Part shown: positions 15,677-49,228 of the stretch, in pieces | How positions within the stretch are numbered: the stretch's first letter is position 1 | Layout: the number at the start of each line of letters is the position of its first letter | Assembly: GCF_018100795.1 (NCBI RefSeq) | Contig: NZ_JAGJDY010000004.1 | Span: 186,001-250,000, forward strand | DNA: 64,000 nucleotides | Reading direction: 5' to 3' | DNA from: Alteromonas sp. MMG017 | GTDB taxonomy: Bacteria; Pseudomonadota; Gammaproteobacteria; Enterobacterales; Alteromonadaceae | Made by a program: the position numbers and the translations under genes | The notes under the pieces: model-generated | The model's database searches: none | Told to the model about the DNA's origin: nothing | The model's input: the letters and a program-made list of their open reading frames with translations, nothing else

Positions 15677-16912
15677 CTACTTTGCAGAAAGTGAACTGTG
15701 CAGCGCATTTTTATAGGCTTCGAATGCCGGTATCGCCGAGGTAACAATAGCTGCCAAAGTGATCACACTGACCACTTTCAGCGTTTCTACCGTCAGCAAA
15801 TTAGCACTTAAAAATAGACCATATTGCGATGCCAGCCAATCGCTCGATAAAGTTAACGTTACGCTAAGTAATACTATTGCTGCCACAATAGCTAATAACA
15901 CTAAAATGAGCGCTTCTACTAATACCAAGGTAAAGATAACCCCAGGACCTGCACCTAATACACGCAAAACCGCAATCTCGTTTTTGCGTTGCTGCATAGA
16001 CGCTAGCAACATAGTCGATAAGCCAAACAATGAAGATATGAGCACCAAGATACTGATAACGCGGAGTAGGTTTTCTACCGTGCCCATCATTTGCCAAAGC
16101 TCGGTCAGTGCCACGCCTGGCAGTATGGCCATAAGCCTATCTGTTTTGTAGTTGTTAATATCTCGCTGAAGTTTAAAGGTCGCAAATTTTGAGGTAAGCC
16201 CAAGCATGACCGCCGTTACACTGTCTGGCGTGGTATTTACCGAGGCTGCATCGTTGAGTAATTGGTTTTGCTTTGATGCTGATAAATGAATAGCTTCAAT
16301 CGCGTTTAAACTTACGTGCACGGTTTTATCCACCGGTGTGCCAGTGGCTGCAAGTATGCCGGTAATAGTGAAAGGGGTATTATCATGATTGGTAAAACTG
16401 GTGTTACCAATACCATGAGATATCACCACATGGTCTCCCACTTTATAACCCAGCGCTTTGGCCACATCGGCGCCTATCACAGCTTCAAATAAGCTCGCGA
16501 AGGCTTGACCGTTTTGAAAACTGAGCGCTTGCTTATTACCAAATCTGAAATGCTGAAAATAGTTGTCGTTGGTACCCATTACCCGAAAGCCGCGGTGAGA
16601 ATCCCCTAACGAGATAGGAATTGCCCAGTCTACTAATTGACTTTCTTGTAGTGCTTCATAGCTTTCATATTTGATGTTACTGGTGGGGCTGCCCATCCTG
16701 AACACTGAATACAATAAGAGATTTAGCTGACCGCTTGGGGCGCCAACGATAAGGTCAACATCTGAAATAGTTCGGTTAAAACTCTCTTTTGCCTGCTGAC
16801 GAATGTGCTCAACGCTAAGCAATACGCTAATACTAATTAGCAGCGAAAGAAACGTTAATACCACTGATTTTCTGCGACTACCTAGGCTACTCCACGCTAA
16901 CGACACTAACAT
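15677..16912 (-). CDS. FtsX/MacB-like ABC permease of a Zrg-type zinc uptake system
   Basis: From ATG 16912 the protein has 411 residues: an N-terminal span (VVLTFLSLLISISVLLSVEHI), a large periplasmic domain, and three C-terminal spans, the MacB/FtsX permease layout. The start is set by a TAATG overlap with the ATPase gene, so the two are translationally coupled. In Vibrio cholerae, a permease/ATPase pair of this kind belongs to the Zur-controlled zrgABCDE zinc system together with the DUF2796 protein ZrgA. All those components are present here within 6.5 kb, so a role in zinc uptake is the best inference. I have not assigned zrgB or zrgC because I am not certain of the letter order. Confidence 0.75.
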   Translation of the reverse strand: MLVSLAWSSLGSRRKSVVLTFLSLLISISVLLSVEHIRQQAKESFNRTISDVDLIVGAPSGQLNLLLYSVFRMGSPTSNIKYESYEALQESQLVDWAIPISLGDSHRGFRVMGTNDNYFQHFRFGNKQALSFQNGQAFASLFEAVIGADVAKALGYKVGDHVVISHGIGNTSFTNHDNTPFTITGILAATGTPVDKTVHVSLNAIEAIHLSASKQNQLLNDAASVNTTPDSVTAVMLGLTSKFATFKLQRDINNYKTDRLMAILPGVALTELWQMMGTVENLLRVISILVLISSLFGLSTMLLASMQQRKNEIAVLRVLGAGPGVIFTLVLVEALILVLLAIVAAIVLLSVTLTLSSDWLASQYGLFLSANLLTVETLKVVSVITLAAIVTSAIPAFEAYKNALHSSLSAK

Positions 16913-17670
16913 TACTTGGTCTCCGCTGGCTGTTTTAGCGAAGATTGTTTTAGAGAACACATTTCTACACTGGTTTCAAAAAACTTTTTCAAATACATAT
17001 CGTGACTTACAAATATTAGTGTTGTGTTGTGCTGCTTACACATGTCGATGAGAATGGTCATAAAGGCGTCTCGTGCGGCAGCATCTAAGGCAGACGTAGG
17101 TTCATCAACAAGCAATATTTCTGGTTTGTTGATTAACGCTCGAGCAATGGCTACCCGCTGCTGTTGACCTACACTCAACGCATTAGCAGGCTGCTGCAAA
17201 ATAGTAGCGGGCAAATTAAGCCCGGTCAGTAACGCTTCGGCCGTATCGGCCACATTAGTTTTGCCCGCTTTTGCAAAATAAGTGGCCAGTTCAATATTTT
17301 TAAGCACACTTAGGTAAGGAATTAGATTGAATTGCTGAAATACCACGCCAATATGCTGCGCGCGAAACTTATCTCTTTGCCTAGCTGATAGAGCTGAAAA
17401 GGGCTTGCCAAGTAATGATAATTCGCCACTTTGTGGCGTTAGCACCCCCGCTAGCAAGTTAAGCAAGGTAGTTTTGCCAGAGCCTGAATGACCATGTAAG
17501 AAAACACGATCACCGTAATTCACCTTCCACGTGGGTATATGCAACCCACTGCTATTTGCATCTGCATAATGATAATTAACGTCATTTAGCGCAATAGCAT
17601 TGCCTTGGTTAGGTGCTGCTTTATTGGAGTCTGCTTCATTTTTCAAAGGTTGCTCTGGTGCTGCTGACAA
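16912..17670 (-). CDS. ABC transporter ATPase of a Zrg-type zinc uptake system
   Basis: The 252-residue protein has Walker A (GHSGSGKTT), Q-loop (VFQQFN), signature (LSVGQQQRVAIARAL), Walker B (EILLVDEPTSAL) and H-loop (IFVSHD), as in LolD/MacB-type ATPases. It starts at TTG 17670 with AAGGAG upstream and overlaps the permease start by TAATG. The divergent promoter region carries a Zur-like palindrome at 17825-17836, shared with the DUF3299 operon on the other strand. Confidence 0.85.
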   Translation of the reverse strand: MSAAPEQPLKNEADSNKAAPNQGNAIALNDVNYHYADANSSGLHIPTWKVNYGDRVFLHGHSGSGKTTLLNLLAGVLTPQSGELSLLGKPFSALSARQRDKFRAQHIGVVFQQFNLIPYLSVLKNIELATYFAKAGKTNVADTAEALLTGLNLPATILQQPANALSVGQQQRVAIARALINKPEILLVDEPTSALDAAARDAFMTILIDMCKQHNTTLIFVSHDMYLKKFFETSVEMCSLKQSSLKQPAETK

Positions 17671-17824
17671 TGTGAATCATCTCCTTTTTGCATTACGCCA
17701 TGTTTGCGTAAAAGTGGATGTAGCGGCCTCTCATTCTATTAGGCCGCCATTTAAGCCGAAACTAAGCCTAACTTGGCGTAAGAGTATGCTTAGCTAGACT
17801 TCAAATGTACAATTTCAAACCGTT

Positions 17825-17836
17825 ATGTTATAACGT
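17825..17836. promoter_or_regulatory. Putative Zur operator (divergent zrg-type operons)
   Basis: The sequence ATGTTATAACGT sits within GTTATGTTATAACGTT, a near palindrome of the gammaproteobacterial Zur type. It lies 39 nt before the DUF3299 gene and about 155 nt before the ATPase gene, so it could control both. A second AT-rich half site (TGTTATAATAAT) follows at 17849-17860. Three other zinc-related promoters in this window carry the same core. Confidence 0.7.
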
Positions 17837-17874
17837 TTTACACTAACTGTTATAATAATTCTTGGCTAAATAAA

Positions 17875-18399
17875 ATGATGAAGTTCTTCTTAAGCGCCCG
17901 CATTGGTATTTTTGTCGCGATAGCAGGCATGCTTTTTTATCCTACAACATATGCAGAAGATATCGAAGCGCCTGGCTATCAAGAGATTGAATGGACACAG
18001 CTAATGCCTGAGGAAGATTCGGTGGAAGCCTTTGGTAATCAAGAATTTGATAACGAAGCCACTAACCGTTTTCAACAAGCATTGACATCAACGCAGGTTG
18101 TTAAAACCTTTGAGAATAAGCCTATTCGTATTCCTGGTTTTATTGTTCCGCTTGAAAGCAGCGAATCGCAAATGGTCACAGAGTTTTTTATCGTACCTTA
18201 CTTCGGTGCGTGCATTCATATGCCGCCACCGCCGCCCAATCAAATTATTTACGTAAGTATTGAGCAAGGTGTTGAGCTAGAAGGCTTGTACGACCCATTC
18301 TGGTTTGAAGGCACCTTGGCTATCGACACCACTGAAAATGCGATGGGCACCGCGGCGTACCGTTTAGAGCACGTTAATGTGCAACCTTACGAGGGATAA
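17875..18399 (+). CDS. DUF3299 protein, Zrg-type zinc system component
   Basis: The 174-residue protein has an N-terminal signal peptide (cleaved near YAE) and the DUF3299 core: RIPGFIVPLE followed by EFFIVPYFGACIHMPPPPPNQ. The conserved Cys-Ile-His before the proline run is a plausible metal or partner site. It is the first gene of an operon with a small unknown protein and a second DUF3299 protein. DUF3299 proteins occur in Vibrio zrg loci, so periplasmic help to the ABC transporter is inferred. An ATG one codon downstream is an equally possible start. Confidence 0.75.
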   Translation: MMKFFLSARIGIFVAIAGMLFYPTTYAEDIEAPGYQEIEWTQLMPEEDSVEAFGNQEFDNEATNRFQQALTSTQVVKTFENKPIRIPGFIVPLESSESQMVTEFFIVPYFGACIHMPPPPPNQIIYVSIEQGVELEGLYDPFWFEGTLAIDTTENAMGTAAYRLEHVNVQPYEG

Positions 18400-18855
18400 A
18401 TGATGACACGATTTAACAAACTATTATCTACCCTGCTTGCTTCTTTAACAGTTGTTTCTGCCGCGCATGCATGCGACCTACATGGTGGTAATATGGGTTT
18501 TGGCTTTAGCCGATTACACCCCCTTGCTCAGCAACATTATCAGGCGTCGGCTTTTAAAGCCCTGTCGGTTAAACACGCTAAACAGGTGGATGTTGTTGTT
18601 GATGAAGCCGCCACAGCGAAAATATCTTACGTGATACCGCTACGCTATCGTGATGTAAACGTGAGTTTCATAGGTAGCGATGGCGTTGAAATTGTGGGCG
18701 AAAGCGCGGTATTACTGGAGCAAGATTCCGGCGTTTATAACTTAACATTTACCGTTAAGCGCCCAGGCTCGTCGCACATTTCAATTCAAATAAATGGGTT
18801 GAGTGACGGTAAGCCTTTTTCACTAAATCAGAAAATTGAATTGCGCTCTGCGTAA
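18400..18855 (+). CDS. Small exported protein of unknown function within the zinc operon
   Basis: I do not recognise this 151-residue protein. It has a signal peptide (LLSTLLASLTVVSAAHA) and a mature N-terminus CDLHGGNMGF rich in possible metal ligands (Cys, His, Met). The rest looks like a single beta-sandwich (alternating strands such as KISYVIPLRYRDVNVSFIG and SHISIQINGLSDGKPF). It starts immediately after the stop of the first DUF3299 gene and ends 5 nt before the second, so it belongs to the same operon. A periplasmic zinc-binding or adaptor role is inferred from context only. Confidence 0.65.
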   Translation: MMTRFNKLLSTLLASLTVVSAAHACDLHGGNMGFGFSRLHPLAQQHYQASAFKALSVKHAKQVDVVVDEAATAKISYVIPLRYRDVNVSFIGSDGVEIVGESAVLLEQDSGVYNLTFTVKRPGSSHISIQINGLSDGKPFSLNQKIELRSA

Positions 18856-18860
18856 GAAAA

Positions 18861-19628
18861 ATGGACAAGGTAGTGAGTAGCGCCGGAGCTAAAGAAAAGG
18901 AGCAGACTGCAATTAACGCTAAGCGTAAGCTACTGAAGACCGTACTAGTCGTTCTAGTTTTTTTAGTGGCTGGCAGTGTGTTCACCAGGCTAGTTCAGTT
19001 ATATTGGCCCAGCATAAAACACCAATTTTCCACAAGCCAAGCACTCTATCAGACCAGCAACCCTGAGTTACAGACCTTATTCAGTCAGGAAATTGAACAA
19101 AAAAGTGTGGTGCGTTTAGGTTGGCAAGACTTACTGCCTGAACAAGAAGAAGCTACGTTACGACAATATCAGTCAGGTAACGCTGCAAGTGAATCATCAC
19201 CTGCTCAAATCGGCACCGTTCAGTCTATTACAAATCAGCTGCTGTTATCTATTCAAGCCAGTAGCGATGAAAATTACAAATCAGCCCTTCACTCAACCAA
19301 TATAGTACAAACCGTTTTAGGCAAAGCTATTTCTATTTCCGGCTTTATTGTTCCGATAGAAGTGAATGAAGATCGCACATTACAGAGCTTTTTCGTGGTG
19401 CCTTACTACGGCGCCTGTATTCACTTCCCACCTCCCCCACCCAATCAAATTATTTTTGTACAACTCCCTGATGGATTTGCTCATCACAATTTGGCCGATG
19501 CATTTACATTAACGGGTATTTTAGAGCAAGGCATGTTTGAAGACCCCCTTGGAACCTCAGCGTATATCCTAAACGTATACGACATTGAGGCTTACCATGG
19601 TCAGCCCGATGACTTTCGTGCTCACTAG
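18861..19628 (+). CDS. Membrane-anchored DUF3299 protein, second copy in the operon
   Basis: The 255-residue protein has one N-terminal membrane span (LLKTVLVVLVFLVAGSVFTRL) and a C-terminal DUF3299 domain: ISGFIVPIEVNEDR, then SFFVVPYYGACIHFPPPPPNQ. It is a divergent paralogue of the gene at 17875, with the same Cys-Ile-His-x-Pro-run motif, but is anchored rather than freely exported. It starts 5 nt after the upstream gene. The pair may bridge the periplasm and the ABC permease; this is inference. Confidence 0.75.
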   Translation: MDKVVSSAGAKEKEQTAINAKRKLLKTVLVVLVFLVAGSVFTRLVQLYWPSIKHQFSTSQALYQTSNPELQTLFSQEIEQKSVVRLGWQDLLPEQEEATLRQYQSGNAASESSPAQIGTVQSITNQLLLSIQASSDENYKSALHSTNIVQTVLGKAISISGFIVPIEVNEDRTLQSFFVVPYYGACIHFPPPPPNQIIFVQLPDGFAHHNLADAFTLTGILEQGMFEDPLGTSAYILNVYDIEAYHGQPDDFRAH

Positions 19629-19741
19629 GCTTATTTAGAGAGAAGACACTATTTTTTCAAGAACGCTCATAGGTATTTGTTAGCTATTTTCTTGGGTGTT
19701 TATAGCGTTTAAGGAGCATTTAGTTGGTGTTTTGCGAACTT

Positions 19742-20860
19742 CTAGTTTTCATCTAGCTGGCAAGCAACTAATTGCTGCTCCCACATACCACTAATGTCAT
19801 CATCGCCCGCCTTAGAAGCAACCTGTTCATTAATAATCACTTCTATACGGCTTTCTAAACAATCATCCAATTCTTTTTCTGATATTGCATCATCTACAAT
19901 GTTGTAGCTGAAAATACCTTCATTGGTGATCATAATTGCTTTAAGCCTTTCCACCTTTAGCGTATCTAGCCAATCATGTAGCGCGGTTCGGTTAAATACA
20001 ATGTAGGGCGAAAATCGCCACCCCATACTTTCAAAGCCTTCTCCGTTATTTTCAATTTTAACGAAGCCGCTTTGTGGTAGGGGTATATCGTTAATATTGC
20101 GCGCTTGATTGTGCCTGTGCTTGTGGTGATGATGATCGTGATCAGCGCTATCAGTATTTTCATGAGTGTGATGTGCGTCATCATGAGAATGGTGAGGTAT
20201 AGGTTGCTTCATTGCTTTAACCACATCCGAAGCACCGTCTAGCAACGATGGCGCTAACTTTCCATGTTGTGCAAAAACGATATCAGGCATGGGATCACGG
20301 CGGTTAGCAACATAATCAATAAGCAGCTGCTTAGAGTCATCTTGGTACAAATCTTCTTTGTTACCGACAACAATATCCGCAACATCAATTTGCTGATTAA
20401 ACGTCTCATGCAGGGTGTAGCGTATATCTGTTAGCTTTCTGGCATCAACCAAAGTGATATTCTTTTGAATATTGAGCACATCTTGATAATGCTCTGCAGA
20501 TAACACTTCTAATACTTCTCTTGGGTGCCCTAGCCCCGTAGGCTCTATTAATAAACGATGGGGTCGAGATCGCGCAAGCAACTGATTAAGCGCAATTTGC
20601 ATAGACAATCCTGATGCACAGCACATACAGCCACCGGGTACCTCACGCACAAACACACCGCTTTGTTCGGTATGAACGCCCTCAAAAAAGCCACCATCAA
20701 TACCAAGTTCGCCAAACTCATTGACTAAAACAGCCCACCGCTCATTTTCTGGTTTAGCTTCTAGTAAGGATAAAATGGCGCTTGTTTTTCCTACACCCAA
20801 AAAACCACTAATAATATTAGTTGGAATAGCACTTAATTTTTCAGGCTTACCTGTTGTCAT
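19742..20860 (-). CDS. CobW/COG0523 GTPase with His-rich zinc-binding linker
   Basis: From ATG 20860 (AGGAAGG 7 nt upstream) the protein has 372 residues. Walker A is GFLGVGKT (residues 18-25), the COG0523 metal motif CMCC lies at 78-81, and VGNKED is the guanine-specificity motif. A linker at about 223-250 is packed with histidines before the CobW C-terminal domain. The family delivers metals to target proteins with GTP hydrolysis. A zinc role is inferred from the His-rich segment and from the Zur-like site upstream of the operon (zrgA, MerC, this gene). Confidence 0.85.
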   Translation of the reverse strand: MTTGKPEKLSAIPTNIISGFLGVGKTSAILSLLEAKPENERWAVLVNEFGELGIDGGFFEGVHTEQSGVFVREVPGGCMCCASGLSMQIALNQLLARSRPHRLLIEPTGLGHPREVLEVLSAEHYQDVLNIQKNITLVDARKLTDIRYTLHETFNQQIDVADIVVGNKEDLYQDDSKQLLIDYVANRRDPMPDIVFAQHGKLAPSLLDGASDVVKAMKQPIPHHSHDDAHHTHENTDSADHDHHHHKHRHNQARNINDIPLPQSGFVKIENNGEGFESMGWRFSPYIVFNRTALHDWLDTLKVERLKAIMITNEGIFSYNIVDDAISEKELDDCLESRIEVIINEQVASKAGDDDISGMWEQQLVACQLDEN

Positions 20861-20881
20861 ACACACCCTTCCTGTACGCCG

Positions 20882-21301
20882 TTATTTATGTGTGATGATG
20901 TGCGGGTAATCGGTTTCATTGTCTGTTTGGCTGCGTAGCCTAAGATTTCGAATATGACTAAATGCAATGAAGCTAGACCCTATTACCGTTAACACCACTT
21001 CGCCGTATTCGCCTAACAAGTCGTGTCCTAACACGACGGCTAGAATAAGCAATGTTAGCCCCACCCCACCCACTAAAAGCATGGTGTGATTTCTGTGATA
21101 AAAGTACCCCATCATAAGTGCAATAACACTGATAGGCACAACAAAGAATAACAACGTTTTATGAAACAACTCATCATCAAAAGCTAAAACCCCCGCTATC
21201 GGAGGAAGCAGAATTAATAAAACAGGCAATAATAAGCAGTGCACCACGCATAGCATAGACAGTGCTATGGCAGCTTTATCGCTTATTTTTTGAAAATTCA
21301 T
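20882..21301 (-). CDS. MerC-domain inner-membrane protein
   Basis: The 139-residue protein has four predicted membrane spans and the MerC-like first span with cysteine and histidine (ALSMLCVVHCLLLPVLLIL). MerC was named for mercury uptake, but related proteins accompany zinc genes in many marine bacteria. It lies between zrgA and the His-rich CobW gene on the minus strand with short gaps (40 and 21 nt), which suggests an operon and a role in zinc passage or sensing. The transported ion is not shown by the sequence. Confidence 0.8.
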   Translation of the reverse strand: MNFQKISDKAAIALSMLCVVHCLLLPVLLILLPPIAGVLAFDDELFHKTLLFFVVPISVIALMMGYFYHRNHTMLLVGGVGLTLLILAVVLGHDLLGEYGEVVLTVIGSSFIAFSHIRNLRLRSQTDNETDYPHIITHK

Positions 21302-21341
21302 TCAGTATGGTTCCTTATCTTTAACCTACTCGATTTTTAGC

Positions 21342-22019
21342 TTACCAGCTTAACGTTGGCTTACCGGCAGATAACGCTGAAAGACCTTGTCCACGCTCGG
21401 TGATCCACTGAGCTTGAATAGCGCTTAGCGATGGCATGGATTCAAACAGGGCAACAGTAATGCCGGACACTACATCATCACAATGAAATTGATATTCAAC
21501 TTCTATATTTTGATGATTTTCTTCTTCGTGTTCTTCATGCCCTGCATGTTCATCGTGCTCGTCATGTTCTTTATGCGAAGCATGTTCGCTCTCATGATCT
21601 TCGTTATGCGCTTCTTCGTGGCCGCTTTCATGGTGGTCATCGTGACCTTTATCATGATCTTCGTCGTGATCTTCGTCGTGACCCTCATCGTGCTGCTTAT
21701 GCATTTCATGATGGTCATCATGCGCTTCTAACGTGTGCTCAACATTCACTAACTCGCATTGTCCTTCTACATCAATCACATTTGTATTGTATGTGAAACG
21801 TTCGGCAAGCAAATTTTGACTATTTAGTTGTTCAGTGGTTTCAGGCTCGTGCTCAAAACCAAGGGCGTCTGCGGCAGGTAATACAAGCTGAAGGTGAAGC
21901 ATGTTTCCCTCTTGAGAAACCAAAAGCTCGCCTTGCCCGTGTACATGCTGCTGCGCATTTACGGCAAATCCCAAACTAGAGAAAAAGAGTAAAGAGACCG
22001 CTATATGGGGCTTTATCAT
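21342..22019 (-). CDS. zrgA: ZrgA-family (DUF2796) His-rich periplasmic zinc-binding protein
   Basis: The 225-residue protein has a signal peptide (ending NAQ), the conserved start QHVHGQGELLVSQEGNMLHLQLVLPAADALGFEHEP of DUF2796 (quoted in parts: QHVHGQGEL, LQLVLPAADALGFEHEP), a His/Asp/Glu-rich stretch at residues 100-170 with some 20 histidines, and a conserved C-terminal part (VEYQFHCDD, LFESMPSLSAIQAQWIT). In Vibrio cholerae ZrgA is a zinc-binding component of a Zur-regulated uptake system. It is the first gene of a minus-strand operon and faces the TonB receptor gene across a Zur-like site. Confidence 0.85.
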   Translation of the reverse strand: MIKPHIAVSLLFFSSLGFAVNAQQHVHGQGELLVSQEGNMLHLQLVLPAADALGFEHEPETTEQLNSQNLLAERFTYNTNVIDVEGQCELVNVEHTLEAHDDHHEMHKQHDEGHDEDHDEDHDKGHDDHHESGHEEAHNEDHESEHASHKEHDEHDEHAGHEEHEEENHQNIEVEYQFHCDDVVSGITVALFESMPSLSAIQAQWITERGQGLSALSAGKPTLSW

Positions 22020-22190
22020 GAATCTACCTTCTTATAAATTTTCAATAATGAGCGACAACTTTTGACCAAAGTAGCATGTGTACACGCTAGGCCAGCTTCG
22101 TGAATCTCTGTATAGAACAAGCCAGTTAACATACGTGAATTTACACGCTTCTTGATCTATTTCTAAATTATCTATTGATTTCATTTTGAT

Positions 22191-22202
22191 ACATTATAAC
22201 AT
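22191..22202. promoter_or_regulatory. Putative Zur operator (zrgA operon / TonB receptor)
   Basis: ACATTATAACAT, read on the minus strand as ATGTTATAATGT, lies in the 228-nt divergent region, 45 nt before the TonB receptor start and about 170 nt before zrgA. The flank AACA extends the half site. Its core matches the sites at 17825, 25599 and 47286. The same region contains TAACATACGT at 22127-22136. Confidence 0.7.
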
Positions 22203-22247
22203 AACACAAAATAAGATTAAAATTATAACTTAGTATCGGGGTTAGGA

Positions 22248-24752
22248 ATGATTAGGGTTACCAAGGTAGCAGCATTAATAAGCGCATTGTTATCAACAAG
22301 CGCTTTAGCACAGAATATAGAAGGCACTGTGCTAAATAAAAATGGCAATGCCGTAGTAGGTGCCAAGGTTGAAGTAGAGGGAACAAACCAAAGCACGGTG
22401 ACCAACAGCGAAGGTAAATTCTCGCTACGTGATGTTAGCAACGGCAACGCCGAGTTGCATATTTCGGCACCCAACTTTGCTCACCTTCATCAAGATATTA
22501 CGCTGGTAGAAGGCAAGCCGCTGCAACTCTCATTTACGCTAAATCGTTCTCCAATTGAAGTGGTTGACGTACTTGCTACGCCTATTCATTTGTCAGTGAT
22601 GGAATCTGCATCACCGGTGAGTGTATTAGCGGGTGAGACTCTTCGCCGCCAGCAAACATCTACTTTAGGCGATAGTTTAGAAAAAGTAGCCGGTGTACAC
22701 ACTAGCTTCCACGCTAAAGTAGCCAGCACACCTGTTATCCGTGGGTTAAGTGGCCCAAGAGTACTTATTGCGCAAAATGGTTTAGATGTGAGCGACGTTT
22801 CACGAGTAGGCCCCGATCATTCAGTAGCATCAGAGGCTTCAACGGCGCAGCAAATCGAAGTGCTACGTGGTCCTGCAACCTTGTTTTACGGTAGTGGCGC
22901 AGTTGGCGGTGTTGTGAATGTAGTAGATGGTCGCATTCCTACCGATAGTACAACGCGAGGCGAATGGTTACTTGAAACCAACTCGGTTGATGATCAACAG
23001 CTTGGCTCTTTCAATGTAACCACGGGGAATGAGTCTTTCGCCTTTTATGCCGATGGGTATTGGCGCGAATCTAACGACTACGATGTTCCTGTTTCACCTG
23101 AAGTAGAGCACGACGATCATGACGAAGATGAAGATGAACATGATGAAGAGCAGGCGCGAGTAGTAGAGAACAGCAACGAAGCGTCGAGTGGATTTACCGT
23201 TGGCACCAGTTATTTGTTCGATAAAGGCTATGTAGGGCTTTCAGTTGAACAATTTAATCGTGAATACGGTATTCCTGGCCATACCCACGGCGAAGAAGAG
23301 CATGATGACGACCACGACGAAGAATTTGATGAAGAGCATCACGAGGAAGAATCCGTTTTTGCCGACCTGGAGCAAACCCGTGTTCAACTTCAAGGTGAAT
23401 ACAATGTAGCAGGGAGTTGGGTAAAACAAATTCAGTTACGCGGTGGATTTACCGACTATGAACACGCTGAAATTGAAGAAGGTGAAGCGGGTACCTTGTT
23501 TGAAAATGAAACCCATGAATTAAAACTCGATGTTTTACACGCGCCAATGAATGACTGGAACGGCGCGGTAAGCTTTCATTACAAAAATAGCGATGCATCA
23601 GCCCAAGGTGAAGAAGCGTTTACTCCCCCTTCGGTTACTGAAACCTTTGCGATGGCTATCATGGAAGAAAAGCGCTTTGATGATGTACTTGTTCAACTCG
23701 GAGCACGTATAGAACATGTATCGCTAGAAGCTGATAACGTTTTGTTGCCCTCTTTGGACACACATGATCATGAGGAAGAGCATGATGGCCATGAAGACGA
23801 TGTTCATGACGACGAGCATGATGAAGATGCCCACGATGACGAGCATGAAGACACCCTAGTATTCCCTATCGATGAATCCTTTACTGCATTAAGCATCTCG
23901 GCAGGTTTGGTATGGGACTTTGCACCAGGCTACAACGTAGGTATCTCAGTATCTCGTTCAGAGCGTGCGCCATCAGCCTCTGAGCTACTTTCATTTGGCC
24001 CACATATTGGCACCAGTACTTATGAAGTGGGGGCTTTATTCGCCTTTCATGAAGAGGAAGGCGAAGCGCATATAGAGCTTGGTGAAGGCAGTATTGAACT
24101 TGAAACTGCTAATAATATCGACCTTACCTTACGTAAAACCGAAGGTAACTTAGGGTTTGTATTAAATGCGTTTTATAACCAAATCGACAACTATTACTAC
24201 CAAACCAATACCGGCCTTTTCGCTGAAAGCGGACATGACCACAGTGAAGAAGAAGGTGGCGAAGAAGAAGGTGGTGATGAGCACGACGAACACACTGATG
24301 AACTGCCCGTTTATATTTTCAAAACTGACGATGTAATATTGCATGGTTTTGAAGCACAAGTTGCTTGGCAAACCACAGATGAATTCAAAACCACGGTATT
24401 TGCCGACTACGTAAGAGCACGTTTACAAGATGGCGGCGATTTGCCTCGCACTCCACCGCTTCGAGTTGGTACGCAGTTTAGCTACCAGAGCGAACGATTA
24501 AGTGCCCACCTCGATATTACACGTTATGAAGAGCAAGACCGTGTTAGTGAAGGTGAAACAGCTACCGATGGCTATACCCTAGTAGATGCCAGTGTGTCTT
24601 ACGATTTAAATGTGCTTAACCAAGATATTTCAGTGTATGTGAAAGGCACAAACCTGACCGATACCGAAGCCAGAGTACATACTTCATTCCTAAAAGATAT
24701 TGCGCCACGACCTAGCCGTAGCTTTGCACTTGGTGTGAGGGGTTACTTCTAA
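22248..24752 (+). CDS. TonB-dependent receptor with His/Asp-rich loops, ZnuD-like
   Basis: The 834-residue protein has a signal peptide, an N-terminal carboxypeptidase-regulatory-like domain (IEGTVLNKNGNAVVGAKVEV), a plug (PVIRGLSGPRVLIAQNG, IEVLRGPATLFYGSGAVGG) and a barrel ending in GVRGYF. Four insertions rich in His, Asp and Glu lie at about residues 286-303, 346-370, 503-537 and 662-685, placed where extracellular loops would be. This architecture matches ZnuD-type zinc receptors. A Zur-like site precedes it, and zrgA is divergent. Outer-membrane zinc capture is strongly suggested but not proven. Confidence 0.85.
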   Translation: MIRVTKVAALISALLSTSALAQNIEGTVLNKNGNAVVGAKVEVEGTNQSTVTNSEGKFSLRDVSNGNAELHISAPNFAHLHQDITLVEGKPLQLSFTLNRSPIEVVDVLATPIHLSVMESASPVSVLAGETLRRQQTSTLGDSLEKVAGVHTSFHAKVASTPVIRGLSGPRVLIAQNGLDVSDVSRVGPDHSVASEASTAQQIEVLRGPATLFYGSGAVGGVVNVVDGRIPTDSTTRGEWLLETNSVDDQQLGSFNVTTGNESFAFYADGYWRESNDYDVPVSPEVEHDDHDEDEDEHDEEQARVVENSNEASSGFTVGTSYLFDKGYVGLSVEQFNREYGIPGHTHGEEEHDDDHDEEFDEEHHEEESVFADLEQTRVQLQGEYNVAGSWVKQIQLRGGFTDYEHAEIEEGEAGTLFENETHELKLDVLHAPMNDWNGAVSFHYKNSDASAQGEEAFTPPSVTETFAMAIMEEKRFDDVLVQLGARIEHVSLEADNVLLPSLDTHDHEEEHDGHEDDVHDDEHDEDAHDDEHEDTLVFPIDESFTALSISAGLVWDFAPGYNVGISVSRSERAPSASELLSFGPHIGTSTYEVGALFAFHEEEGEAHIELGEGSIELETANNIDLTLRKTEGNLGFVLNAFYNQIDNYYYQTNTGLFAESGHDHSEEEGGEEEGGDEHDEHTDELPVYIFKTDDVILHGFEAQVAWQTTDEFKTTVFADYVRARLQDGGDLPRTPPLRVGTQFSYQSERLSAHLDITRYEEQDRVSEGETATDGYTLVDASVSYDLNVLNQDISVYVKGTNLTDTEARVHTSFLKDIAPRPSRSFALGVRGYF

Positions 24753-24802
24753 AAGAAGTCGATTAATATAGCTGTGAAAGCAGCTCTTAAAATTCAACGT
24801 TT

Positions 24803-24837
24803 AGAATGGCAGTGTAAACACTGCCATTCTTGTTTTT
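24803..24837 (+). terminator. Intrinsic terminator of the TonB receptor gene
   Basis: A 12-bp perfect stem (AGAATGGCAGTG / CACTGCCATTCT) with a TAAA loop is followed by TGTTTTT, 50 nt after the receptor stop codon. Confidence 0.9.
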
Positions 24838-24873
24838 GCTAATGTGTTTAATCGCTTTTCTTCTACACGCTAG

Positions 24874-25296
24874 TTACTTTCGCTCTCGTTGAAAATGACG
24901 CTCTTTCCCTTCATTAACTTGTTTTACGTCTGCACAATATTCTGAAATTGGCCGGATCAAAAGCCGAGGTATGCCAATAGGCTCACCAGTCTCTTTGCAA
25001 TAGCCAAAATCACCTTCGGTAATGCGCCTAAGTGATTTATCAATTTTAAGTATTAGCTTTCTTTCTCTATCAAGAATACGTAAGCCAATGCGTGAATCTT
25101 CTTCATATTGCGCCCTATCCACATCATCGTTTATCTCCGGTGGGTCGCTCAATTGCACCTTCATTTCTTCTATGTGCAACATCGTCTTTTTCTTTAATTC
25201 GGTGAGTAACGCTTTGAAAAACGCCAATTGAGCATCACTCATATAATCGTCGGCCGGTGCATCTAGAAGCTGCTGCTTATCGAGTATCTGATTCAT
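24874..25296 (-). CDS. dksA2: DksA paralogue with incomplete zinc finger (DksA2-type)
   Basis: From ATG 25296 the protein has 140 residues. It keeps the DksA coiled-coil tip (DDVDRA at 58-63) and the C-terminal globular domain (EGDFGYC...IGIPRLLIRPISEYC). The four cysteines of classical DksA are reduced to two: the first CxxC reads C100-K-E-T103 and the second C121-A-D-V124. In Pseudomonas aeruginosa a DksA2 with the same kind of loss replaces DksA during zinc starvation. The start is fixed by an ATGA overlap with the upstream small gene. A Zur-like palindrome lies 300 nt upstream of this start. Confidence 0.9.
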   Translation of the reverse strand: MNQILDKQQLLDAPADDYMSDAQLAFFKALLTELKKKTMLHIEEMKVQLSDPPEINDDVDRAQYEEDSRIGLRILDRERKLILKIDKSLRRITEGDFGYCKETGEPIGIPRLLIRPISEYCADVKQVNEGKERHFQRERK

Positions 25297-25511
25297 GACA
25301 AGCTTTCCTTTGCCTGCGTAAGCCAACGCAGCGTGTTTTCATAATGATTTTTGCCGTAACAGTTTAAAAACTGTCGTGTGTACTCGTTTTTTACATCGCT
25401 CATGGCAGCGATACGCTCATCGACAAAAGTTGCGGTTAGGGGAATACCACACTCTTCTATGATGCAATGTTTCCATTGCTCGTAACTTGATGGAATGATT
25501 GGCGTTTTCAT
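25293..25511 (-). CDS. 72-residue conserved-looking protein coupled to dksA2
   Basis: I do not recognise this small protein. It is soluble-looking and has no signal peptide or membrane span. It contains two cysteines near the N-terminus (HCIIEEC), a third further on (FLNCYGKNHYENTLRWL), and several aromatic residues. Its stop codon overlaps the dksA2 start (ATGA), which implies translational coupling. The Zur-like site at 25599-25610 is the nearest regulatory element, 88 nt upstream. A role in the zinc-starvation response is inferred only from this context. Confidence 0.7.
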   Translation of the reverse strand: MKTPIIPSSYEQWKHCIIEECGIPLTATFVDERIAAMSDVKNEYTRQFLNCYGKNHYENTLRWLTQAKESLS

Positions 25512-25598
25512 TCAATTACCTTCTTAATATTAAACCAAAAATATGATTTCAAAGGTTATGTACAACAAAACCATACTATTATAAATCCACATACAGAT

Positions 25599-25610
25599 AT
25601 GTTATAACAT
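25599..25610. promoter_or_regulatory. Putative Zur operator (dksA2 operon)
   Basis: ATGTTATAACAT is a perfect 12-bp palindrome, the most symmetric of the four Zur-like sites in the window. It lies in the 358-nt gap between the dksA2 operon (minus) and the S10 peptidase gene (plus), 88 nt from the small gene and 260 nt from the peptidase. The rest of the gap is AT-rich and shows no other gene. Confidence 0.75.
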
Positions 25611-25869
25611 CACACAAATAAGATATGCAAATTAGCTTGCGTACTTAATGTGTTAGTACTTAGTTTCTTAGCACGCGTATTTAGGAACTTACCCCATTCC
25701 TAACTACACGCATGAATGCTATAGCGTTCGATTTACCTAAATAAAATGCAGACAGACACAAGTCGGAAATATCGGCTATTCTGTCGTACAAAGAGCACTA
25801 TACCCATACGGCAAGGTATAGTGATGCACGTGACATCTATTAAATGAATAACAACGAAAAGAAAACACG

Positions 25870-47181: not shown

Positions 47182-47285
47182 GCACGTTGTTTTTGCGCTT
47201 ATCTATGTCTTTTGTTCCCTCGTCGTGCAGCACCTTTTATTAATCAGAGCACAAATTCACTATTCTCAAATCGCGCACTTATGAT

Positions 47286-47297
47286 ATGTTATATTGT
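47286..47297. promoter_or_regulatory. Putative Zur operator (CobW/DUF1826 operon)
   Basis: ATGTTATATTGT shares its first eight bases with the three Zur-like sites of the zinc island. Alternatively framed, TGTTATATTGTAACA (47287-47301) is an interrupted palindrome of the GTTATA-N-TATAAC type. It lies 37 nt before the CobW start, where a repressor would block transcription. Confidence 0.6.
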
Positions 47298-47333
47298 AAC
47301 AATATAAACCTTAATCATTGTGGGTGAATTATA

Positions 47334-48536
47334 ATGAACAACGCAAAACTTCCCGTTACTGTGTTGTCTGGCTTTTTAGGTGCAGGCAAAACGACGGTTC
47401 TCAGTCACATTCTTAATAATCGCGAAGGCAAACGTGTAGCCGTTATTGTTAATGATATGAGTGAAGTGAACATAGATGCGTCTATCGTTAAAAACGATGT
47501 GTCCCTGAACCACAGTGAAGAAAAGCTGGTTGAAATGAGTAACGGCTGCATTTGTTGTACTTTGCGCGAAGACTTACTTCTTGAGGTAAATCGGTTAGCG
47601 GCAACAGGCAGCTTTGACTATTTGCTTATTGAGTCCACAGGTATATCAGAACCGCTTCCCGTGGCAGAAACTTTCACCTTTGCCGATGAAGACGGTGTGT
47701 CGTTATCAGATATCGCTAGCTTAGATACCATGGTGACTGTGGTTGATGCGGTTAACTTCAGTAAAGACTACGAAGAAGCCAAATATTTACAAGAAACCGG
47801 TGAGTCTCTTGGCGAAGAAGACGAGCGTAGTGTAGCTGATTTGCTTGTTGACCAAGTAGAGTTTGCCGACGTTATCCTTGTTAGCAAAACAGATTTGGTT
47901 GATGAAACTCATGTGGCGAATTTAACTGCCATTTTGAAAAGCCTGAATACAAGCGCCAAGATAATTCCTATCAATAAAGGCAACATCGATATTGATGAGG
48001 TGTTAGGCACACAACTATTCAATTTTGAAAAAGCCCAGCTTGCTCCAGGCTGGCTTAAGGAAATGCGCGGTGAACACACACCAGAAACCGAAGAGTATGG
48101 CATTAGCAGCTTTAGTTACCATGCACGCCGTCCTTTCCACCCGCAAAAATTCTATAACTTTTTACATACCACCGAAAATTACGGAAAATTATTACGCTCT
48201 AAAGGCTACTTTTGGTTAGCCTCGCGCCCTGAATGCGCAGGTCAGTGGAGCTAAGCTGGCGGCATTGCACATTACGGCTACGGCGGTATGTTTTGGAAGG
48301 CGCTTCCTAAGTCTGAGTGGCCTGAAGATGAAGAGTACCTAGCCTCGATTGACAAACAATGGATGGAGCCTTTTGGCGATATGCGTCAAGAGTTGGTGTT
48401 TATTGGGCAAAACTTAGATGAGGCGACAATCACCAAAACCCTCGACACGTGCTTATTAGATGATGATGCCCTTATAAAAGGGGTAGATTATTGGCGTACC
48501 CTGCCCGACCCATTTCCGCGTTGGGAGGGATTGTAA
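47334..48536 (+). pseudogene. CobW/COG0523 zinc GTPase interrupted by an in-frame TAA
   Basis: The gene has Walker [10 protein letters not shown] (residues 13-21), the metal motif CICC at 72-75, and the C-terminal CobW region. At 48252-48254 a TAA interrupts the frame after RPECAGQWS; the same frame then continues AGGIAHYGYGGMFWKALPK to a stop at 48534. The family normally reads S-Q-A-G here, so a CAA-to-TAA change is the simplest explanation. Read through, the product would be 400 residues, the size of ZigA/YeiR-like zinc chaperones. As it stands a 306-residue protein lacking the last 94 residues is made. A sequencing error cannot be excluded. Confidence 0.8.
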
Positions 48537-49228
48537 TGACACAGACGCTAGCGGCTAGCCCTTTATCTGAAACCGCACTTTCAAGTGCTGATACGCGCAT
48601 TAAAAAGTCGAGTACATCAGTAGAGCCTATTGTGCTTACCGATATCTATAACGATGAGTGTAATATTGCGATTTGGCAGCGACATTTAGACGAGAACTTT
48701 GTAGCCTCATTAACTACCTTTGTAAAAAATGGCGGCAAGCTGACTGCGGCTAGGCAGCTGAGTTCAGATTCAGCCGAGGCCCATATTCGCACCTTAGCTG
48801 ATGACCAATCTTTTGCACCTCAATTACATGCCTATATAGCAGAGCTCGTCGACATGTTTACCTGCTTGTTTGAAGCGAAAACCGTTGGCTTTAGATTATC
48901 AACGTTAGACAAAGCCATGTGCCCTCGTTTTCATGTTGATAGAGTACCTTGCCGGTTAGTGACTACCTTTGTTGGGCCTGGCAGTCAGTGGCTAGAACAC
49001 AATAACACCGACCGAGAAATGCTTGGCCATAAAAGCGGTGCGTTAACCGATGATAATTCGGGTTTGTATCGCACAGCCCAAGATATACAAACTTTGGGAA
49101 CAGGGGATGTGGCTATTTTAAAAGGAGAGTTGTGGCACGATAATGAGAACGCCGGAATAGTGCATCGTTCACCACCGGTTTCTAGCAGCCAACCTCGTAT
49201 TGTGATGACACTAGATTTGGTGGATTGA
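48536..49228 (+). CDS. DUF1826 protein coupled to the CobW gene
   Basis: The ATG at 48536 overlaps the CobW stop as TAATG, so I prefer it to the upstream in-frame start at 48491. The 230-residue protein has the DUF1826 pattern: IAIWQRHLDE, TVGFRLSTLDKAMCPRFHVDRVPCRLVTTFVGPGSQWLEH (in part CPRFHVDRVPCRL) and GDVAILKGE with HRSPP. The HVD-type segments suggest a metal-dependent, possibly 2-oxoglutarate-oxygenase-like fold. DUF1826 genes are often next to zinc CobW genes; the function is unknown. Confidence 0.8.
   Translation: MTQTLAASPLSETALSSADTRIKKSSTSVEPIVLTDIYNDECNIAIWQRHLDENFVASLTTFVKNGGKLTAARQLSSDSAEAHIRTLADDQSFAPQLHAYIAELVDMFTCLFEAKTVGFRLSTLDKAMCPRFHVDRVPCRLVTTFVGPGSQWLEHNNTDREMLGHKSGALTDDNSGLYRTAQDIQTLGTGDVAILKGELWHDNENAGIVHRSPPVSSSQPRIVMTLDLVD

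Follow-up and report, generated by a model that had tools for sequence, protein, structure and literature searches.

How does zinc cross the inner membrane in a bacterium whose zinc-starvation genes include no agreed importer for that step? The question is raised by positions 15677-25511 of a 64-kb stretch of DNA from Alteromonas sp. MMG017 (below, the window, meaning the whole stretch that was analysed), where genes for a ZrgB-like permease and a ZrgC-like ATPase, two DUF3299 proteins, a putative exported protein of 151 amino acids, a COG0523/CobW GTPase, a membrane protein of the MerC family, the His-rich protein ZrgA, a ZnuD-like TonB-dependent receptor, a DksA paralogue and a 72-amino-acid protein lie together (Table 1). 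Read from its sequence, this would be a zinc-starvation locus repressed by Zur, the binding of Zur being predicted from palindromes in its promoters. In the explanation proposed here, whose chances as a whole are put at about even, MerC would be the inner-membrane zinc carrier and ZrgBC, the pair of ATP-binding cassette (ABC) proteins, a periplasmic machine. The new lead of the locus is MerC, and the remaining reading is mostly ordinary.

The classical importers were sought in the host genome, which has a completeness rating of 100% in 84 contigs. Models for ZnuA (PF01297), the ABC-3/ZnuB permease (PF00950) and ZIP (PF02535) had no match there at E <= 0.001; the same models matched 11, 13 and 8, respectively, of 14 control genomes. 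Of 147 family genomes, a single one has a strong PF00950 match (E <= 1e-20), versus 147 of 274 genomes of a class sample. In the other 69 of the 70 family genomes with a PF00950 match, the match is weak; these matches are mostly frames of ~325-430 amino acids, which is the size of FecCD/BtuC-type permeases, and they were left out of the ZnuB count. Within the locus itself, the inner-membrane step is without an agreed importer because the permease and ATPase belong to the MacB/LolE type and the part of such a pair in metal import is disputed: such a pair has been described as a zinc importer (PMC9820375) and as a split MacB exporter tied to pyochelin-cobalt (PMC11481552). Consequently, the original prediction that the locus joins every step of zinc acquisition and sparing is not supported.

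Given these findings, it is proposed that MerC proteins with the motif CxxHC are unrecognised Zur-regulated zinc importers that would replace ZnuABC across the Alteromonadaceae-type family, with MerC as the true permease in zrg loci and ZrgBC as a mechanotransmission helper. This proposal, which is judged a little likelier to fail than to hold, draws on regulation as read from sequence, on conservation and on the near-absence of rivals in the family. MerC (PF03203) is present in 140 of the 147 family genomes, including all 54 that have ZrgA, and in 52 of the 274 class-sample genomes. To describe its motif and surroundings, 70 family proteins were sampled (the 70 best-scoring rows, not a random draw, plus the second copy of the host, giving 71 loci, one of which was dropped because its last 60 residues duplicate another); all 70, which had not been filtered for the motif, have CxxHC. 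In 13 of them, zrgA is close by on the same strand, and a Zur-like box precedes zrgA in the window and in 9 of the 12 other genomes. For the other 57, the 330 bp upstream of the motif contain a box in 47 cases at no more than three mismatches of 15 (23 of 28 genera) and in 42 cases at no more than two. A reversed pattern gave four and none, and among 161 control open reading frames (ORFs) taken from these loci, 8 and 4 had a box (Fisher 2e-29 and 1e-27, with kinship ignored); these controls come from the 57 loci only and exclude 11 ORFs that share the merC promoter region, while a broader first set gave 16 and 10 of 192. Ten MerC genes have no box. Nine of these have a match to the cobW, TonB-receptor or DUF3299/zrgC profile in their stretch, and one (L126), whose upstream DNA was covered, has none.

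The host genome has a second merC (L004/L102, C1:73202-73685), a stand-alone gene whose 142-amino-acid product carries CxxHC and whose Zur palindrome has one mismatch. Its protein falls on a branch of 35 family rows, and a TonB-receptor profile match lies ~5-8 kb away. In two named loci (L254, L264), merC is split over two frames. The open-access literature yielded no link of MerC or PF03203 to Zur or to zinc uptake, with RegPrecise and subscription literature outside the scope of that search and a prior mention possible; one paper deals with MerC-bufferin fusions and not with zinc (PMC12452194).

Outside the family, there appear to be two kinds of MerC. Forty class regions were compared, 36 of them the best rows in order and four taken from the weaker remainder. 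The twenty strongest and one other (L201) are of the CxxHC type. Among these twenty, a Zur-like box is present in six, and a box or a zinc-type profile match in 16, the match sometimes lying 5-7 kb away; L173, L177, L182 and L185 have neither. The fifteen regions L186-L200 have CxxCFP, and a merA-like motif is found in 12 of the 15 versus none of the 20 CxxHC regions; none of the 15 has a box at three mismatches or fewer. The four weak regions have neither motif. In a tree of 101 MerC rows, kept after near-identical rows had been merged, 14 of the 15 mercury-type rows form a single 100/100 branch apart from 87 CxxHC rows, the inner order being unsure given few columns, long branches and an unsettled bootstrap. 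The window MerC, with CVVHC and zinc neighbours, lacks the CxxCFP motif and mer-operon context of mercury transporters, and it scores 20.3 and 16.5 bits with the NCBIfam MerC equivalogs, whose cut-offs are 170 and 140. Two of these regions deserve mention. At L189, a mercury-type region, a DUF3299 motif is also present. At L201 (genome G171, a class member outside the family), merC, a dksA-family gene and cobW are adjacent, so that the link of MerC, DksA and COG0523 recurs.

The AlphaFold model of the window MerC is all-helical (predicted local distance difference test, pLDDT, 87.8), with C18-C22 in its first helix and E101 and H116 in its last. Both MerC alignments (A1 and A3) keep G81, H116 and N119 without exception; E101 is invariant in one of them and conserved at >=90% in the other. 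Both alignments were chosen by a CxxHC filter, so that the invariance of the three residues of that motif is by construction, and A3 holds 33 of 36 listed relatives, three with over-long frames having been excluded. A VIA match to FAT domains (Z 8.8, root-mean-square deviation [rmsd] 2.7, 91 aligned) was set aside as what a plain helical bundle gives. With respect to cargo, MerC reportedly takes up mercuric ions (Sahlman 1997), and cadmium transport is said to have been observed for MerC, MerE, MerF and MerT (Ohshiro 2020). Such reports make group-12 metals a plausible cargo. In MerE, transport of Hg(II) requires the Cys pair of the first transmembrane segment and an adjacent His (PMC5715351).

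These elements can be assembled into a model in which Zur binding, the metal, the directions of transport and the roles of MerC and ZrgBC are what we infer. When zinc falls, Zur would leave three divergent promoters. The ZnuD-like receptor would then bring zinc across the outer membrane, assisted by its acidic and His-rich stretches, and ZrgA, the DUF3299 proteins and the CxxH protein would hold periplasmic zinc and hand it over. ZrgBC, as a mechanotransmission ABC system of the MacB/LolE type, would spend cytoplasmic ATP on periplasmic work, such as stripping or re-setting ZrgA or DUF3299, rather than serving as a metal channel. MerC, using the CxxHC of its first helix, would move zinc through the inner membrane, as mercury-type Mer proteins do with Hg(II), and would pass it to the His-rich COG0523 GTPase. 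Finally, the two-cysteine DksA would stand in for the zinc-finger DksA and thus spare zinc. The run of genes zrgA-merC-cobW mirrors the order periplasm, membrane, cytoplasm.

ZrgA is present in 54 of the 147 family genomes, and 56 ZrgA loci of the family were compared over stretches of 12-20 kb. Matches were most frequent for DUF3299 (45 loci), the zrgC profile (44) and zrgB (38), followed by merC (29), cobW (22), the receptor profile (17), the 151-amino-acid protein (11), a second DUF3299 gene (10) and a DksA paralogue (5); the zrgC and TonB profiles are not specific to zinc proteins. Seven of the 56 have all nine families besides DksA and lack the DksA paralogue itself, and only in the window, within stretches of up to ~20 kb, does the two-cysteine DksA stand beside all nine. 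A scan of named genomes by DUF3299 alignment gave 572 confirmed loci, and among the best 80 of these, zrgA and merC are together in 34, zrgA, merC and cobW in 26, and all nine parts in 3, including Paraglaciecola polaris (L246) and Alteromonas oceanisediminis (L253). Some of the 80 lie on the same contigs as loci in the set of 56, and the nine-part loci partly overlap the seven. The combination had seemed worth describing; the gene-neighbourhood comparison shows that it is not peculiar to this locus, and since the nine parts recur together, the cluster represents a module that is found repeatedly and not a one-off. A third DUF3299 gene of the host genome (C1:322581-322955, L002/L103; 163 amino acids) has no ZrgA profile match in its 20-kb stretch.

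Order and content vary widely over the 56 and the 80 loci, which is what would be expected if the locus were an ordinary collection of Zur-regulated genes selected for co-regulation, with no physical coupling and with MerC a relic of metal resistance that has no role in uptake. Against this stand the presence of MerC in nearly all family genomes, its box in most genera and a CxxHC kept in every sampled protein, by which MerC looks maintained rather than left over, and an account of this kind is thus considered very improbable.

Several observations weigh against MerC as the zinc importer of the family. ZIP exceeds its cut-off in 41 of the 147 genomes, 15 genomes have a weak PF00950 match of ABC-3 size (255-280 amino acids, E 1.3e-13 to 1.9e-8), and PitA, CorA and NRAMP, which might serve as inner-membrane alternatives, lay outside the importer search. 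Seven family genomes are without MerC (G005, G018, G022, G040, G064, G107 and G120); ZrgA is in none of them, and two have a weak ABC-3-sized match. Only 29 of the 56 ZrgA loci have merC within the stretch, and 3 of the 13 zrgA-adjacent cases (L046, L064, L096) have no box before zrgA. The idea that MerC replaces ZnuB throughout the class was rejected, since 8 of the 17 genomes that hold the twenty CxxHC loci keep a strong PF00950 match, which is about the class rate; such a replacement would be a family-level pattern at most. No relative of MerC was found in PDB, and Foldseek gave it no match at E <= 0.001. Furthermore, a Zur-like box would imply regulation and not specificity for zinc, and Cd, Co and Hg are possible cargoes as well. 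Lastly, zrgA of V. cholerae is needed for normal zinc-free growth in a znuA mutant (PMC9820375), and because the zrgABCDE cluster there has no merC gene (MerC elsewhere in that genome was not searched for), ZrgABC may be able to import zinc alone.

This last point leads to a different assignment, proposed for Vibrio, in which the import of zinc through the inner membrane falls to ZrgABC and MerC has an accessory part, whether as a chaperone, as a donor to ZrgB or as a low-affinity side route. The poor growth of V. cholerae zrgABC(DE) mutants without zinc, with ZrgA needed (PMC9820375), is in its favor, as are work on V. parahaemolyticus (PMC9817125) and the matches to zrgB and to the non-specific zrgC profile at most ZrgA loci. 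However, ZrgB has the architecture of a MacB core with FtsX and resembles LolE, LolF and MacB. None of these three proteins is known to move ions inward. In addition, 93 of the 147 family genomes have no ZrgA, yet MerC is present in 140 of the 147. Such an importer role for ZrgABC in the window is therefore taken to be rather unlikely. It is also conceivable that ZrgBC exports a zincophore or some other ligand and that the locus, with MerC, handles cobalt or a metal-ligand complex, as the split MacB PA4064-PA4065 of P. aeruginosa, with its pyochelin and cobalt phenotypes, would suggest (PMC11481552). Among the locus proteins scanned, however, no metallophore synthesis gene was recognised (a genome-wide search was not made), and the sole PDB relative of the receptor at E <= 1e-10 is ZnuD; this export scheme is regarded as distinctly improbable.

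The reading in which MerC is the carrier includes control by Zur. A 23-bp matrix was derived from 45 distinct sites, each strictly upstream of a merC gene and none of them from the host genome. Its consensus is GAAATGTTATAATATAACATTTC, which we take to be the Zur box familiar from gammaproteobacteria. This agreement is weak evidence because the core was imposed by the pattern with which the sites were gathered, and the matrix is not wholly independent, since that pattern was partly the familiar Zur motif and partly derived from the window. An earlier, looser matrix, made from the first site with at most two mismatches anywhere in each locus, gave the same result. Four positions of the window score above 12 (Table 1). 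In 60 first-order Markov sequences of the length of the window, the mean number of such positions was 0.15 and the maximum score 18.7; thus, the sites of the locus are singly not beyond chance, but their number and their placement in three divergent promoters are. It had been claimed that each gap between the gene blocks carries a palindrome, four in all. Three stand, one per divergent promoter. A fourth was looked for within the locus and not found in the gaps 19629-19741 and 24753-24873, both of which are convergent and so need no promoter; the fourth site of the window lies 21.7 kb off, ahead of another COG0523 gene. At ZrgA loci generally, boxes with at most three mismatches were counted ahead of zrgA (26 of 56), DUF3299 (24 of 45) and the receptor (12 of 17); with the pattern reversed, the counts are one, one and none. 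The genome also encodes a protein of the Fur family whose best model is Zur (NF008646, 160 bits against a cut-off of 167). Taken together, the three boxes, this Zur-like regulator and the zinc-linked gene families bear out the earlier reading of the locus as one of zinc starvation.

Other Zur-like sites were noticed in passing. A second Zur-type operon of the window (47283-49228) has a ZigA-type gene interrupted by a stop codon, followed by DUF1826 (PF08856 1.1e-60). Elsewhere in the host genome, one site lies beside another TonB receptor (C22:366523, L008/L105) and another lies ahead of an ABC-2 ATPase/permease pair with a His-containing stretch (C55:314981, L011), which is possibly a further zinc transporter.

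The genes were identified by Pfam and NCBIfam scans, hydropathy, His and Cys counts and matches to PDB chains, and their coordinates are collected in Table 1.

Table 1. Genes and Zur-like sites of the window (site scores are from the 23-bp matrix; E-values unless stated otherwise)
Feature	Position	Strand	Evidence
ZrgB-like permease, MacB_PCD + FtsX	15677-16960	-	PF12704 1.9e-12, PF02687 5.6e-12
ZrgC-like ABC ATPase	16912-17670	-	PF00005 3.4e-34
Zur-like palindrome, zrgC/DUF3299 divergent promoter	17817-17839		18.7; looser matrix 19.0
DUF3299 protein 1, hydrophobic N-terminus, ZrgE/PA4066 relative	17875-18399	+	PF11736 2.6e-47; PDB 4hsp 7.4e-34
Putative exported CxxH protein, 151 amino acids	18400-18855	+	alignment of 10, AlphaFold; no trusted family
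DUF3299 protein 2, N-terminal hydrophobic anchor	18861-19628	+	PF11736 6.5e-38, hydropathy
COG0523/CobW GTPase, His-rich loop	19742-20866	-	PF02492 1.5e-40; 13 His in residues 224-254
MerC-family membrane protein, CxxHC type	20882-21301	-	PF03203 9.6e-30; CVVHC motif
ZrgA, His-rich zinc-binding protein	21342-22019	-	PF10986 1.3e-36; PDB 8ezw 6.6e-12, PA4063 7ahw 2.3e-5
Zur-like palindrome, zrgA/receptor divergent promoter	22183-22205		18.2; looser matrix 17.8
TonB-dependent receptor, ZnuD-like	22248-24752	+	PF00593/PF07715; four His/Asp/Glu-rich stretches
DksA paralogue, two cysteines	24874-25296 (ATG 25296; frame open to TTG 25326)	-	PF21157, PF01258
72-amino-acid protein, unnamed small family	25293-25511	-	no Pfam/NCBIfam match; four relatives
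Zur-like palindrome, upstream of 72-amino-acid gene/dksA-like operon	25596-25618		17.3; looser matrix 17.8
Zur-like palindrome, separate zinc operon, best of window	47283-47305		23.1; looser matrix 23.4
ZigA-type COG0523 frame, in-frame TAA at 48252-48254	47334-48536	+	NF038288 2e-168, 560 bits for the part before the stop; cut-off 600

Every gene named in the original prediction was found by these scans and by inspection of the sequence, and the insertions described there for the receptor are seen as four His/Asp/Glu-rich stretches. The MacB-like permease, separate ATPase and DUF3299 protein of Zrg systems are all present; zrgD (DUF2607), which is found at the majority of Vibrionaceae zrg loci though not at every one (PMC9817125), had no match among the locus proteins scanned, short unlisted frames lying outside the scan. 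By hydropathy, the ZrgB-like permease, with its MacB periplasmic core, has a single hydrophobic segment at the N-terminus and about three at the C-terminus, and its nearest PDB chains are LolF/LolE, then MacB; the best NCBIfam model of the ATPase is LolD (9.8e-48), under its cut-off. ZrgA, with 29 His among its 225 residues, exceeds the PF10986 gathering cut-off and falls under that of the NCBIfam ZrgA equivalog (113 versus 185 bits). The receptor matches NF038289 at 2.2e-108 (364 bits, where the curated cut-off is 950), and its PDB relative is ZnuD 4rdr (8.6e-57). By the NCBIfam model, the GTPase of the locus is not ZigA (62 bits against a cut-off of 600). In DUF3299 protein 1, ~22 residues after the LMP motif are absent, which ten aligned relatives keep wholly or partly. 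The word island, if it is to mean foreign DNA, is not supported, as the G+C content of 0.41-0.46 is the range of the window; the lowest value of the window, 0.406, is that of the 2 kb at 24-26 kb.

The DksA paralogue is, as predicted, short of two zinc-ligating cysteines. It has two, at ORF positions 110 and 131, where canonical DksA has CxxC...CxxC, and a canonical gene lies elsewhere in the host genome (L329). The coupled small gene was likewise confirmed: the stop codon of the 72-amino-acid gene overlaps the ATG of the dksA-like gene as ATGA. Four relatives of this small protein were found among the best 80 of the 572 named loci, with 18 invariant positions including C16 and C21 and the motif WxxCIxxEC. 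One precedes dksA2 in a Nitrosomonas metagenome-assembled genome (L273), one lies just 3' of merC in Aliikangiella (L286), and the others are at L270 and L315; the family thus belongs to zinc loci generally and not to DksA alone. In the 151-amino-acid protein, an alignment of ten sequences has C24, H27, F35 and H39 invariant, with CxxH right after a start that was judged by eye to resemble a signal peptide; a hydropathy scan found no segment over its threshold. The residue at -1 to the Cys is A or S in the ten sequences and that at -3 is small or aliphatic, and cleavage there would leave the protein with an N-terminal Cys. Its AlphaFold model has a beta domain with pLDDT >90 and an N-terminal part at ~43-58. 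The fold is an immunoglobulin (Ig)-like, macroglobulin-type beta sandwich (VIA Z 11.7, rmsd 2.4, 98 aligned to bacterial alpha-2-macroglobulin), which is uninformative on function because many Ig-like domains match.

Textbooks give ZnuABC as the zinc importer of the inner membrane, yet strong ZnuB matches are all but missing from this marine family. If the proposal for MerC is correct, annotations of CxxHC-type MerC as mercury resistance proteins would be wrong wherever they are found, and the way in which Mer proteins take up mercury could be seen as derived from, or shared with, a nutrient importer. The dispute over metal import by ZrgBC could then be settled by separating ZrgBC from MerC.

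How the locus relates to known systems can now be stated. As had been pointed out, Zrg proteins, ZnuD, COG0523 GTPases and DksA2 are each known elsewhere, which the literature confirms. Zrg systems have been described in Vibrio and Pseudomonas (PMC9820375, PMC9817125, PMC8561739, PMC11481552), and the solved DUF3299 member, PA4066 (PDB 4hsp), is OB-like and of unclear role (PMC8561739). With ZrgABCDE of Vibrio and PA4063-PA4066 of P. aeruginosa, the locus shares ZrgA, the MacB-like permease, the ATPase, DUF3299 and, as predicted from its boxes, control by Zur. It differs from both in that its genes lie on both strands, with the two DUF3299 genes and the exported CxxH gene divergent from zrgCB, and in the addition of MerC, COG0523, the ZnuD-like receptor and DksA2. 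MerC of mer operons has in common with the window MerC the family PF03203, a small all-helical membrane protein and cysteines in helix 1; proteins of the window type have CxxHC instead of CxxCFP, zinc neighbours or a Zur-like box instead of merA, and a separate branch in the tree. The receptor resembles ZnuD (4rdr) as a TonB-dependent receptor and in addition has an N-terminal carboxypeptidase-regulatory-like domain and four acidic/His stretches. PMC2770081 covers both zinc-linked COG0523 proteins and DksA paralogues that lack the C4 motif. Like the Pseudomonas paralogues described there behind Zur sites, the window DksA lacks the motif, with two of its four cysteines; unlike them, its gene is preceded and overlapped by that of the 72-amino-acid protein. 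Finally, the GTPase of the locus is, like YciC and ZigA, a His-rich G3E protein linked to Zur, and the ZigA-type gene of the window is the separate one at 47334.

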